Shown here: piece after piece, positions 11,795 to 16,627 of the stretch
Numbering within the stretch: the stretch's first letter is position 1
How the letters are laid out: the number at the start of each line of letters is the position of its first letter
Assembly: GCA_947624565.1 (NCBI GenBank)
Contig: CANQKX010000002.1
Coordinates: 66,059 to 98,454 of the forward strand
DNA from: an uncultured Bacilli bacterium
GTDB taxonomy: Bacteria > Bacillota_I > Bacilli_A > RF39 > UBA660
Length of the DNA: 32,396 nt
Direction: 5' to 3'
Notes under the pieces: generated by a model
The model's database searches: none
The model's input: the letters and a program-made list of their open reading frames with translations, nothing else
Told to the model about the DNA's origin: nothing
Position numbers and translations under genes: made by a program

Positions 11795-13429
11795 GTGAAA
11801 GAGAAAAAGAAAAATTCATTTATAAGTAATGTACTAATGTTAATGTTCTCACAAGTTTTAATAAAACTACTAGGTTTAGTATATAGACTTGCAATTACTA
11901 ATGTAAAAGGTTTTGGTGATTTAGGTAACGGATATTATTCTGCAGGGTATCAAGTATATGCTGTTTTATTAATAATATCATCACAAGGTATTCCAGGTGC
12001 TGTATCAAAACTTGTATCTAATAAAGTAGCTCAAAATAAATATAATGAAGCACATAGAATATTTAAAGTATCACTTTTAGTATTTGCAATAATTGGTGCA
12101 TTATGTTCATTAATATTATTCCTTTTATCTGACTTTATTTCTACTAATATATTAAATGTACCAGATGTAACATATGTATTAAAAGTATTATCACCTGCAA
12201 TATTCTTTGTTTGTGTATCTGCAGTTATAAGAGGATATTTCGCAGGACTTGGTACGATGAAAGCATCAAGTATTTCTCAAGCATTAGAACAATTCTTTAA
12301 CTGTGTATTAACTATCACTTTTGTATATTCTTTAGTTGGACAAGAACCATATATAATGGCTGCAGGTGGTAATTTATCAACTACACTTGCAATATTAATA
12401 TCATTTTCATATTTATTATTATTTTATAAAACAAATATTAAAAAATATAAAGAAGAATCTGATGATAAAGTTGATAAGGTTAAAAATCCTACATCTAAAC
12501 TTGCTAAAGCAATTATTTTAACAGCAATACCACTTACAATAGGATCAGTTATATCTGTTGTAACCACTTTTATAGATACAGTAACTGTTAGTAATTTAAT
12601 TCAAATTGCATATGATGGTATTTTAGGTAGTAAAGAATTACTTGAAAAAGAGGCCATGAGACTTGCTGGAATACTATCAAAAGTAGATACTTTAGTAAAT
12701 CTTCCAATAGCAGTTAATTTATCATTTTACTCTGCATTAATACCTGCGATTACTTCAGCAATTGCTCAAAAAGATTATAAATCAGCATCAAGAAAAATAT
12801 CATTTTCAGTATCAACATCACTTTTAATAGTAATACCATGCGCAATTGGATTCATAGTACTAGCAGATCCAATACTTAAAATGCTTTATCCAAATGCATC
12901 AGATGGAGCCCATATACTTCAAATTGCAGCTGTTACTATGGTATTTGTAGCAGTAAATCATACACTTCAAGGTTCTTTATTTGGACTTGGTAAAATGTAT
13001 ACTCCTGCATTAGCATTATTATGTGGTAGTATTGTAAAAATAATATTAAATTTAATATTAATAAGAAATCCTAATATAAATATTTATGGTGCAGTAATAA
13101 GTTCATTCATATGTCAATTAATAACATTTTTGATAATTTATATAACTATAAAAAAATCTATAAAATTTAAAATAGATATTAAAAATGGAATATTAAAACC
13201 ATTATTATCAGGTTTTGTTATGGCATTATTTATATTAATTATTTATACACTTTTAAATAATGTAATAGGTAACTCTATTTCAACAATTATATGTATATTA
13301 TTTGGTGCATTTATATATTTATTAATGGTATTTATTTTAAAAGTATTTAATAAAGATGAAATAAAATCATTACCAATGGGTAATAAAATATATAGTATGT
13401 TATTAAAATTAAAATTATATAAGGAGTAA
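11795..13429 (+). CDS. SpoVB/MurJ-type lipid-linked precursor flippase
   Basis: A 544-residue membrane protein of the MOP/MVF superfamily with about 14 spans. The N-terminal KLLGLVYR segment (24-31) and the cytoplasmic loop between spans 6 and 7 are typical of the Bacillus SpoVB/YtgP group; YtgP is a lipid II flippase (MurJ), and SpoVB works in spore cortex synthesis. The expected role is to move an undecaprenyl-linked precursor across the membrane. It starts with GTG, because the nearby ATG at 11793 runs straight into a stop; AGTAGGA precedes it. It is the first gene of a four-gene unit with a racemase-like gene three bases downstream and MurT/GatD-like genes after that, tying it to peptidoglycan precursors. 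Confidence 0.82.
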   Translation: MKEKKKNSFISNVLMLMFSQVLIKLLGLVYRLAITNVKGFGDLGNGYYSAGYQVYAVLLIISSQGIPGAVSKLVSNKVAQNKYNEAHRIFKVSLLVFAIIGALCSLILFLLSDFISTNILNVPDVTYVLKVLSPAIFFVCVSAVIRGYFAGLGTMKASSISQALEQFFNCVLTITFVYSLVGQEPYIMAAGGNLSTTLAILISFSYLLLFYKTNIKKYKEESDDKVDKVKNPTSKLAKAIILTAIPLTIGSVISVVTTFIDTVTVSNLIQIAYDGILGSKELLEKEAMRLAGILSKVDTLVNLPIAVNLSFYSALIPAITSAIAQKDYKSASRKISFSVSTSLLIVIPCAIGFIVLADPILKMLYPNASDGAHILQIAAVTMVFVAVNHTLQGSLFGLGKMYTPALALLCGSIVKIILNLILIRNPNINIYGAVISSFICQLITFLIIYITIKKSIKFKIDIKNGILKPLLSGFVMALFILIIYTLLNNVIGNSISTIICILFGAFIYLLMVFILKVFNKDEIKSLPMGNKIYSMLLKLKLYKE

Positions 13430-13432
13430 AAT

Positions 13433-14518
13433 ATGAATGAGTTAATTATAAATAAAGAAGATTTACTACATAATATAAATATTATAAGAAAGCAAGAAAA
13501 ATCAAATGATTATACATATATTGCTGTAGTAAAAGGTAATGCTTATGGACTTGGATTAATAGAATTTACTAAATTTTTAATAGATAATAATTTTAATTAT
13601 TTTGCAGTAGCAGCAGTTAATGAAGCACTTACTTTAAGAAAAAATAATATAAAAGAAAAAATATTATTACTTTCAGCATGTTATGATGAAAATGATATAG
13701 AGTCATTAATTAGTAATGATATAATCCTTACAATTGATTCAAAAAAATCTTTTGATATGATTAATGAAATATCTAAAAAATTAAATAAAAAAGTATATGC
13801 TCATATAAAGATAGATACTGGTTTATCTAGATATGGATTTAACTATGATGATATTTATACAATTAAAGAAATATGTAAAACAAATAGCAATATAATATTT
13901 GAAGGTATTTATTCTCATTTTTCTACTTCTTTATCAAAAGATTCAACATTTAGTAATATTCAATTTTCAAGATTTAATAAAGTTTTAGATGAGTTAAATA
14001 AAGATAATATAGATTTTAAACTAAAACATATATGTAATTCTTCAGGATTTTTTAAATATAAAAATATGCATTTAAATTGTGCTAGAATAGGATCAGCATT
14101 TACAGGTAATGCTGTTGGAATAAAATCTGATTTAAAAAAAATAGGATTATTTCATACTAAAATATCAAGAGTAAGAGATGTAAATAAAAATGATTATATT
14201 GGATATGCTAATTCATATAAAGTAAAGAAACCTATGAAAATAGCAATATTACCAGTAGGATATTATGAAGGAGTTGGATTATCTTTAAAAGAACAAAGAT
14301 TTAGATTTTTAAGTAAATCAAAAAATGCTCTAGTAAGTATTATGAATATTTTTAAAGATAATTCACTTCATTTAGGTAAATTTAAAGTACTTGGTCAAAT
14401 TGGAATGCATGATGTAGTTATTGATATAACTAATTTAGATTATAAAGAAAATGATGATATATATTTTTATGTAAGACCTGTATTAATAGATTCAAGTGTA
14501 AAAAGAAAATATAAATAG
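13433..14518 (+). CDS. Alanine racemase-like PLP enzyme, divergent
   Basis: A fold-type III PLP barrel enzyme of the Alr family. The PLP lysine is K34 in VVKGNAYGLG (usually VVKANAYGHG), the IDTGLSRYG (127-135) segment is present, R218 in CARIG matches the pyridine-N-binding Arg, and Y277 in GYYEG matches the second catalytic base (usually GYADG). By hand alignment with the Geobacillus enzyme the C-terminal beta domain is divergent: the CMD segment reads GMH (324-326), and the Tyr of the SYRVPR segment becomes Ser (354). The protein is short (361 against ~385 residues). Both catalytic bases survive, so racemase activity is plausible, but the substrate may not be alanine. It follows the flippase gene by three bases and precedes murT by 17. 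Confidence 0.8.
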   Translation: MNELIINKEDLLHNINIIRKQEKSNDYTYIAVVKGNAYGLGLIEFTKFLIDNNFNYFAVAAVNEALTLRKNNIKEKILLLSACYDENDIESLISNDIILTIDSKKSFDMINEISKKLNKKVYAHIKIDTGLSRYGFNYDDIYTIKEICKTNSNIIFEGIYSHFSTSLSKDSTFSNIQFSRFNKVLDELNKDNIDFKLKHICNSSGFFKYKNMHLNCARIGSAFTGNAVGIKSDLKKIGLFHTKISRVRDVNKNDYIGYANSYKVKKPMKIAILPVGYYEGVGLSLKEQRFRFLSKSKNALVSIMNIFKDNSLHLGKFKVLGQIGMHDVVIDITNLDYKENDDIYFYVRPVLIDSSVKRKYK

Positions 14519-14535: not shown

Positions 14536-15903
14536 ATGAGAAAATTATATTTTATATTTGTACTTTGGGGAGTAAAATTTGGACAATTGCTTTGTAAAAT
14601 ATTTAAACAAGGTGGATCAATGATATCTGGTAAAGTAGCAGTTATGTTTCAGAAAAATTTTGTTAAGTATTTTACTAATATAGATTATGATAAAGTTATT
14701 TTTGTAACAGGAACAAATGGTAAATCTACAACAACTAATTTAATTTATCATACTTTAAAAAGTGCAGGTAAAAAGGTTTGTACTAATGGTGAAGGTGCAA
14801 ATATGATGAGTGGAGTAGCAACTACTCTTATAAAAAATTCAAATGTGTTTGGAAGATTTAATAAAGAATTTTTAGTATTAGAAGTTGACGAAAGAAGTTT
14901 AAGAAACATATTTAAAGTATTACCCGCTAAAAATTTATGCATAAGTAATTTACAAAAAGATCAAGTACAAAGAAATGGTGACCCAGATTTTATATATCAA
15001 ATGTTTAAAAATTCTCTTAATAAAGATGTAACACTTTTTGTAAATAATGAAGAACCAAGAAGTAGATCTTTAGAAGATTATGTTGATAAAACTATTTATT
15101 TTAGTATTGAAAAAAATATTAAATCATTTGTTAAAAATGACTTTTATGATGTAACTATGCCTTGTCCTAAGTGTTCTCATAAAATAGAATATGAATATTA
15201 TAATATTGAAAATATTGGTAAATTTAAGTGTAGTAATTGTAATTATAAAAGTTTAAAAAAATCAAATGTAAATATTAAAGATATAGATTATGATAATTAT
15301 ACATTTAAATGTGGTAAAGATACTTATAAGGTTAATTATATAAATCCATTTTATATATATAACTATGCCCTTACAATTGCAGTTTGTAAAAAATTTAATA
15401 TAGGATATGAAGATATACAAAAAGGTTTTGAGACATTTGTAAATCCTGCCAATAGAAGAGAAGTATATAAATATCATGGTAAAACAATTCATTATTTAAG
15501 AATCAAACAAGAAAATCCAGAGACACTTCAAAATGCTTTAGATACAGTTTTAAGAGATAAAAAAAGTAAAGCAATATGGATGGGATTATATGAAATAAAA
15601 GATTTTAAACCGGCATACACTAACACATTTTATTTCTTTGATTGTAATTTTAAAGATGTAGTTAAATCAAATGTAGAAAAATATGTATGTTTTTCAAAAA
15701 CAGTATGTTATGATACAGCAAATAGAATGATTTATGCAGGAGCAGATGAGAAAAAAATTAAAGTTTATGATGTTGAGGATGATTTTGATATAATTTTTGA
15801 AGATTTAGATAAATTAAAGACTGATAATATTTATCTAATAACAGGAATGAAACCATATAAAAAATTAAAAACATTCTTTGAAAAAGGTGATAAAAATGAG
15901 TAA
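14536..15903 (+). CDS. murT: MurT-like Mur ligase, altered amidation motif
   Basis: MurT is the ATP-dependent subunit of MurT-GatD, which amidates the alpha-carboxylate of D-Glu in lipid II. The ligase part looks functional: P-loop GTNGKST (59-65), EGANMMSG (86-93), EVDER (116-120), a four-Cys zinc ribbon (C210, C213, C232, C235) and the NPANRRE segment (303-309). The C-terminal DUF1727 region starts at about 320. There the usual ND-x3-ADG-x-D-x-SW stretch is replaced by a different sequence (about 350-370), and hand alignment places N363 where the S. aureus enzyme has D349, the Asp that completes the GatD catalytic triad. The 3' end overlaps the GatD-like gene by 8 bases. Family assignment is firm; the reaction is open. 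Confidence 0.85.
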   Translation: MRKLYFIFVLWGVKFGQLLCKIFKQGGSMISGKVAVMFQKNFVKYFTNIDYDKVIFVTGTNGKSTTTNLIYHTLKSAGKKVCTNGEGANMMSGVATTLIKNSNVFGRFNKEFLVLEVDERSLRNIFKVLPAKNLCISNLQKDQVQRNGDPDFIYQMFKNSLNKDVTLFVNNEEPRSRSLEDYVDKTIYFSIEKNIKSFVKNDFYDVTMPCPKCSHKIEYEYYNIENIGKFKCSNCNYKSLKKSNVNIKDIDYDNYTFKCGKDTYKVNYINPFYIYNYALTIAVCKKFNIGYEDIQKGFETFVNPANRREVYKYHGKTIHYLRIKQENPETLQNALDTVLRDKKSKAIWMGLYEIKDFKPAYTNTFYFFDCNFKDVVKSNVEKYVCFSKTVCYDTANRMIYAGADEKKIKVYDVEDDFDIIFEDLDKLKTDNIYLITGMKPYKKLKTFFEKGDKNE

Positions 15904-16627
15904 TATAATAAATGTAGGTTGGATGTATCCAGATATACTTAATTTACATGGAGAAAGAGCAAATGCAAAATCATTTGAGTTAGTATCAAAAAAGATGAAA
16001 GTAAAACTTAATATTGATAGAATAGATAATATTGACGAATTAGTAGATTTTGAAAAATACGATATACTTTTATTTAATGCAGGAGAATTAAAAGAAATAG
16101 AAAATATTTCTAATTGTCTAAATAATCAAAAAGAAAGTCTTAATAAATATATAAAAGAAAATAAGGTTATATTACTGACAGGTACAACAGGTGCTTTATT
16201 TTCTAACAAGGTAGAAAGATTAGATGGATACTCATTTGAAGCACTTAAAATACTAGATATGGATGTAAAAGAAAGAGATAGTGTAATAGGTGATGATTTA
16301 TATTATATTGCAAATAATATGCAAATAATGGGTTCTCAAATACAAATGATTGACATAACATTAAATAATGTAAAACCATTTGGAAATATAAAATATGGTT
16401 ATGGTAATAATGGTAATACAAAAGAAGGAGCAAGATATAAAAATGTAATATTTACTAATGCACTAGGGCCTGTTTTAGTTAAAAATCCATGGTTTACAGA
16501 GTATCTAATAAAACTTGCATTAAAAAATAAAAATATACAACTAGAAAATAAAAAAATAAATTATGATTTAGAAAAGAAATCACTTGAAAGTAGTAAAGAA
16601 TTTATAGATAAAAAAATAAATAGTTGA
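15896..16627 (+). CDS. gatD: GatD-like protein lacking glutaminase catalytic residues
   Basis: Homology to GatD, the class I glutamine amidotransferase partner of MurT, is clear over the full 243 residues: DILNLHGE (13-20), the YGYGNN-x3-KEG-x2-YKN block (167-183), GPVLVKN (191-197) and the usual length. Yet the active site is gone. The nucleophile segment ICGGYQ reads LTGTTG (94-99, Thr95 for Cys), the LHGP segment reads ALGP (Leu190 for His), and the oxyanion GGG and NHGG segments are also changed. The only Cys is C74, far from the site. The start is the ATG at 15896 inside the murT end, with AAGGTGAT before it; an in-frame TTG at 15878 is less likely. It probably keeps a structural or regulatory role with MurT. 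Confidence 0.8.
   Translation: MSNIINVGWMYPDILNLHGERANAKSFELVSKKMKVKLNIDRIDNIDELVDFEKYDILLFNAGELKEIENISNCLNNQKESLNKYIKENKVILLTGTTGALFSNKVERLDGYSFEALKILDMDVKERDSVIGDDLYYIANNMQIMGSQIQMIDITLNNVKPFGNIKYGYGNNGNTKEGARYKNVIFTNALGPVLVKNPWFTEYLIKLALKNKNIQLENKKINYDLEKKSLESSKEFIDKKINS

Follow-up and report, generated by a model that had tools for sequence, protein, structure and literature searches.

A natural clade of MurT/GatD pairs without a glutaminase site in Bacilli, with a possible glutamine-independent route to amidated lipid II

The MurT/GatD complex is a target for antibacterials, and its chemistry is generally considered glutamine-dependent. MurT shares its middle domain and ATP chemistry with MurC-F and the pseudomurein ligases, whose nucleophiles are amino acids or peptides and whose UDP-binding domain is absent from MurT. 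In Staphylococcus aureus, MurT and GatD are each inactive alone and the complex does not use free ammonia at pH 7.5; a complex of MurT with GatD C94G retained ammonia-dependent amidation of lipid II at pH 8.5 (PMC3266927). In Streptococcus pneumoniae, the acid equivalent to S. aureus MurT Asp349 is part of a 'negative gate' facing GatD, and a D355A substitution lowered activity but did not abolish it (PMC6085368). In S. aureus MurT, D349N severely reduced activity (PMC6113224).

An overlapping murT-gatD pair was encoded in the window, the whole stretch of 32,396 nucleotides that was analyzed, which belongs to a genome of 1.06 Mb that is 94% complete. Reading of the open reading frames and the DNA placed the overlap, proposed in an initial annotation of this DNA, at 8 bases. 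The relevant features are:

11795 to 13429, + strand: MurJ/SpoVB-type flippase gene, upstream (matches to PF01943, PF03023 and TIGR02900; synteny)
13433 to 14518, + strand: alanine racemase gene, directly upstream of murT (TIGR00492, 215 bits, cut-off 168)
14536 to 15903, + strand: murT homologue, 455 aa, with Mur ligase middle domain, Cys4 zinc ribbon and MurT C-terminal domain
14800 to 14802, + strand: MurT Asn89, retained (S. pneumoniae Asn85, acceptor carboxylate; alignment; role from PMC6085368)
15508 to 15513, + strand: MurT Gln325-Glu326, two-residue insertion in the K-N-P loop (alignment counts)
15622 to 15624, + strand: MurT Asn363, at the position of Asp349, which completes the triad and belongs to the 'negative gate' (alignment)
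15896 to 16627, + strand: gatD homologue without a glutaminase site, 243 aa from the ATG at 15896 (PDB matches 5n9m and 6gs2)
16178 to 16186, + strand: GatD Thr95-Gly96-Thr97, nucleophile elbow (alignment, model secondary structure and DNA)
16463 to 16465, + strand: GatD Leu190, at the position of catalytic His189 (alignment)

The MurT homologue matched MurT among the sequences of solved structures (E 6.6e-36; PDB 7q8e, 6gs2 and 9sq9) and scored above the cut-offs of PF08353 (53.5 bits, cut-off 25) and PF08245 (45.6 bits, cut-off 24), but below that of the NCBIfam equivalog NF045635 (147.8 bits, cut-off 800). Its AlphaFold model (pLDDT 88.5) best matched 9sqj (Z 36.1, rmsd 2.8 over 389 residues). 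An alignment of about 110 pairs with the S. aureus and S. pneumoniae references, from which the triad columns were also taken, showed that the P-loop Gly-Lys, Asn89, Glu116, Asp118 and Glu119 were kept and were invariant or nearly so, Asn89 being invariant across all aligned MurTs. The first three zinc-binding cysteines were likewise retained, and the complete ribbon (C210, C213, C232, C235) was present in all four sequences of the window genus. The preservation of P-loop, acidic motif and zinc ribbon that had been read from this sequence was thereby borne out, and the window pair resembles the S. aureus and S. pneumoniae systems in gene pairing, in both folds, in the ATP, Mg and acceptor residues of MurT and in the zinc ribbon. 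In MurT it differs from them by the two-residue K-N-P insertion and the absence of Asp349, which faces the GatD site and is replaced by Asn363, as originally proposed; Asn was also found in G761 and G763. The acceptor-side loop (DNAAD, Asp346) and the channel loop were altered relative to known MurTs.

The GatD homologue matched GatD among the sequences of solved structures (E 2e-18). Its AlphaFold model (pLDDT 95.6) confirmed the GatD fold, with S. aureus GatD (6h5e_A) as best match (Z 31.2, rmsd 1.8 over 240 residues), clearly above the Z of approximately 19 obtained with other glutamine amidotransferases. The catalytic site was nevertheless missing. The Cys94 column was occupied by Gly96 in an alignment that was gap-free from Asp54/Asp56 to the Cys94 site, and in the model the strand ended at residue 95 and the helix started at residue 96. 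Thr95, to which the initial annotation had assigned the Cys94 position, was excluded by the alignment and by this strand/helix boundary and corresponds to Ile93; the loss of the cysteine stood, the position was one residue off, and the correction leaves the conclusion on the lost site unchanged. The replacement of His189 by Leu190 was upheld (His in 26/26 canonical sequences, Leu in 4/4 of the window genus), as was the disappearance of the oxyanion segment G59-G60-G61 (N-A-G in the window GatD) and of the NHGG block (I-Q-M-I-D). The position of the glutamine-capturing Arg128 held Val in 4/4 sequences of the window genus, which also lacks the gate Asp and Trp352. In contrast to the S. aureus and S. 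pneumoniae proteins, the window GatD had no Cys, His or oxyanion glycines and was invisible to the GATase_3 profile PF07685, and its score with the equivalog NF045636 was 76.4 against 400.

Values of pN/pS of 0.27–0.36 for gatD and 0.15–0.30 for murT indicated purifying selection, so that neither gene is decaying; the gene order MurJ-Alr-MurT-GatD and the overlap were kept in five genomes of the window genus. Both observations agree with an earlier argument against decay. The genome of the window was searched family by family. A second, canonical gatD, for which a check had been suggested, was not found in it: PF07685 gave no match and a profile of the glutaminase-less GatDs retrieved the window copy only. 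The only clear PF00117 matches (L116, L117) were apparently stand-alone, gamma-glutamyl hydrolase-like proteins, and a search for class I amidotransferase-type proteins showed no CarA, GuaA or PyrG. The PF08245 search (L112-L114) recovered MurD, MurE and MurF, with a DNPR motif in MurE that makes it probably of the meso-DAP type; MurC was not found by this search; its gene may belong to the 6% that the assembly lacks, or the search may have overlooked it. Within the limits of sequence evidence, the window GatD is without glutamine hydrolysis. The pair belongs to MurT/GatD by fold, gene order and MurT chemistry, while its GatD lacks the catalytic features that define the subunit, and the name glutaminase is not appropriate for it.

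The loss is not peculiar to the window genome; it was inherited from the ancestor of a clade that extends through the family. Of 276 genomes of the order, 92 (about a third) contained a gene matching a MurT profile. Among the pairs read in the family, three were canonical (L073, L075, L077) and the rest, from about 70 genomes, were dead, i.e., without the glutaminase site. Dead GatDs of the family carried a conserved T-G-N motif at the elbow, which is T-G-T in the window genus. Five groups were distinguished: canonical (27 loci), TGN1 (68 MurTs), TGN2 (9; in four genomes it is an extra copy in addition to TGN1), the window genus and IEQ. The latter comprised two loci (L176:2908-8308, + strand, and L177) from another family of the class, in which Cys94 is replaced by Glu, His189 by Arg and Asp349 by Ile; dead pairs L083, L086 and L088 come from genomes belonging to yet another family of that class. 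This survey spans one class, the only one whose members were returned by a phylum-level profile search.

Cys and His were absent from all 81 GatDs of the dead clade (77 TGN, 4 window genus). Each of the five groups was monophyletic, and a branch with support 99/96.5 set TGN1, TGN2 and the window genus together apart from the other groups. The two-residue insertion in the K-N-P loop of MurT was found in 68/68 TGN1, 9/9 TGN2 and 4/4 window-genus sequences and in none of the canonical (0/27) or IEQ (0/2) sequences, i.e., in 81/81 versus 0/29. Monophyly, branch support and shared insertion are most simply explained by a single loss of Cys and His in the ancestor of TGN1, TGN2 and the window genus, with a second, independent loss of the glutaminase in IEQ. 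Within the clade, a topology joining the window genus to TGN1 was not rejected (p-AU 0.273).

Loss on the two subunits had been described as coordinated, which applies to some branches only. In TGN1, an acid (Asp or Glu) was present at MurT position 349 in 67 of 67 readable sequences, alongside GatDs without Cys and His, whereas it was lost in the window genus (4/4), IEQ (2/2) and most of TGN2 (6/9). The MurT acid was therefore lost later and in some lineages only, and its retention in TGN1 without the triad indicates a role beyond the triad. TGN1 MurTs carried new conserved residues (K-x-E-N and S-x-R-Y), and the TGN1 elbow was among the most conserved columns of GatD (Thr93 99%, Gly94 100%, Asn95 93%). 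No description of a glutaminase-dead GatD clade was found in the open-licence literature.

Since the glutaminase site is gone and both genes remain under selection, another source of nitrogen, or another nucleophile, is needed. The initial annotation had suggested a changed reaction with GatD as partner, a reading that glutaminase loss in an otherwise selected pair supports. From retained and lost residues, the best explanation, with a probability just short of even, is that the pair acts as a glutamine-independent lipid II isoglutaminyl synthase with a non-catalytic GatD. MurT would bind ATP and Mg and activate the D-Glu alpha-carboxylate of the lipid-linked precursor by forming an acyl phosphate on D-Glu. 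GatD would have a structural and perhaps a regulatory part, completing the MurT site and gating it. The amine would arrive from solution, with free ammonia as the likeliest nucleophile, and the product would be the usual D-isoglutamine, made by an ammonia-dependent route; the window genus would additionally have lost the gate Asp of MurT.

Ammonia is favored by the C94G data, by the distribution of glutamine synthetase, which was not found in the genome of the window or in 263 of 264 genomes of the order, and by the gate acid kept in TGN1, whose retention fits the ammonia-gate role described for that residue. The S. aureus C94G complex is the hand-made equivalent of the natural lesion, although it is a single laboratory mutation and the window pair an evolved enzyme. 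Vertebrate CPS I likewise combines a non-glutaminase amidotransferase domain, which lost its catalytic Cys, with the use of free ammonia (PMC7657897), but its synthetase and substrate are unrelated and it serves as an analogy only. Absence of glutamine synthetase was rejected as the driver of glutaminase loss: it is near-universal in the order and does not separate dead from canonical pairs. Canonical GatDs persist in the family, in which the enzyme is just as scarce (G014 has none); a lack of glutamine synthesis therefore does not make the loss inevitable. Against ammonia stand the indifference of S. aureus MurT/GatD to it at pH 7.5, the changed MurT loops and new TGN1 residues, which a new substrate would explain as readily as a new gate would, the absence of gate Asp, Arg128 and Trp352 from the window genus, and the racemase and flippase order of the window, which resembles TGN2 clusters that are reminiscent of amino-acid ligation.

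An amino acid as nucleophile is the main, serious rival, with its best case in TGN2 and a possible one in the window genus. MurT and the dead GatD, the latter as scaffold, would join it to the D-Glu alpha-carboxylate of lipid II, as in a group B-like peptidoglycan; in TGN2 it would perhaps be a D-diamino acid such as D-Orn or D-Dab. That the entire dead clade or, more narrowly, its TGN2 and window branches have become such a ligase (for a D-diamino acid in TGN2) is possible but on balance doubtful. Its appeal comes from the neighborhoods of the TGN2 pairs, most of which adjoin, in the family, at least one of an ATPgrasp_ST ligase, a MurJ/SpoVB flippase and an ornithine racemase-like protein. 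The TGN2 murT-gatD clusters are:

L170:4833-7897, - strand: TGN2 cluster, with ATPgrasp_ST fused to MurT
L171:3452-8897, + strand: TGN2 cluster, with a diaminobutyrate transaminase (EctB equivalog, 562.9 against a cut-off of 552.2)
L172:5317-8575, - strand: TGN2 cluster
L180 and L181: TGN2 clusters

The ornithine racemase-like proteins at TGN2 loci matched NF040742 with E values of 1e-101 and 5e-116, below its cut-off. These clusters look like a D-diamino acid pathway for the cell wall; no link of ornithine racemase to peptidoglycan was found in the open-licence literature. At IEQ locus L176, a glutamine synthetase gene lies directly upstream of murT and a flippase gene downstream. Loss of the 349 acid tracked such neighbors (7/9 loci versus 1/26; Fisher 4e-5), an association in which the neighbors were picked post hoc; the genomes share ancestry, and no more than three lineages (TGN2, window genus, IEQ) count as independent. 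The MurJ-Alr-MurT-GatD order of the window points the same way, but its racemase scores as an ordinary alanine racemase and, as the sole Ala_racemase_N gene found in its genome, is in any case required for D-Ala. No such neighbors accompany TGN1, which makes up most of the clade: its pairs stand alone, with no conserved operon partner in about two dozen contexts. The yebC-ldcB neighborhood of the window genus also occurs at two TGN1 loci of genus g22. Moreover, attachment of the amino acid could be the work of the ATP-grasp protein, and a pocket for an amino acid is putative in the window MurT. We know of no identified enzyme that ligates an amino acid to the D-Glu alpha-carboxylate of lipid II, and none was found in the open-licence literature.

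It is improbable that the dead GatD is a regulatory or stabilizing remnant of a pair that no longer modifies D-Glu, through decay or a shift to another substrate, e.g., in recycling. The genomes are reduced, only about a third of the order keeps any MurT, and the DNAAD muropeptide motif is changed; against this weigh purifying selection, the kept ATP and Mg residues and acceptor Asn, the strong conservation of T-G-N in TGN1, and the gene order and overlap shared by five genomes. Slightly less probable still is a supply of glutamine-derived ammonia from another, diffusible glutaminase, with GatD as adaptor only. The glutamine synthetase upstream of murT at L176 shows that nitrogen genes can adjoin a dead pair, but there was no candidate glutaminase beside the window pair or in the TGN1 contexts, and class I amidotransferases were few in the genome of the window. 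Finally, an alignment or sequencing artefact concealing an intact triad is scarcely conceivable, as nothing in its support was found, the Cys site aligned without gaps, the model is confident, and triad-site letters identical in all five genus genomes in which the pair was read make a sequencing error very unlikely.

Retention of GatD across a large natural clade that has lost the glutaminase implies that this subunit does important non-catalytic work, and the clade supplies ready-made variants for testing this. Should the TGN2 clusters prove to ligate amino acids, they would be candidate enzymes for substituents on the D-Glu alpha-carboxyl group in peptidoglycan.
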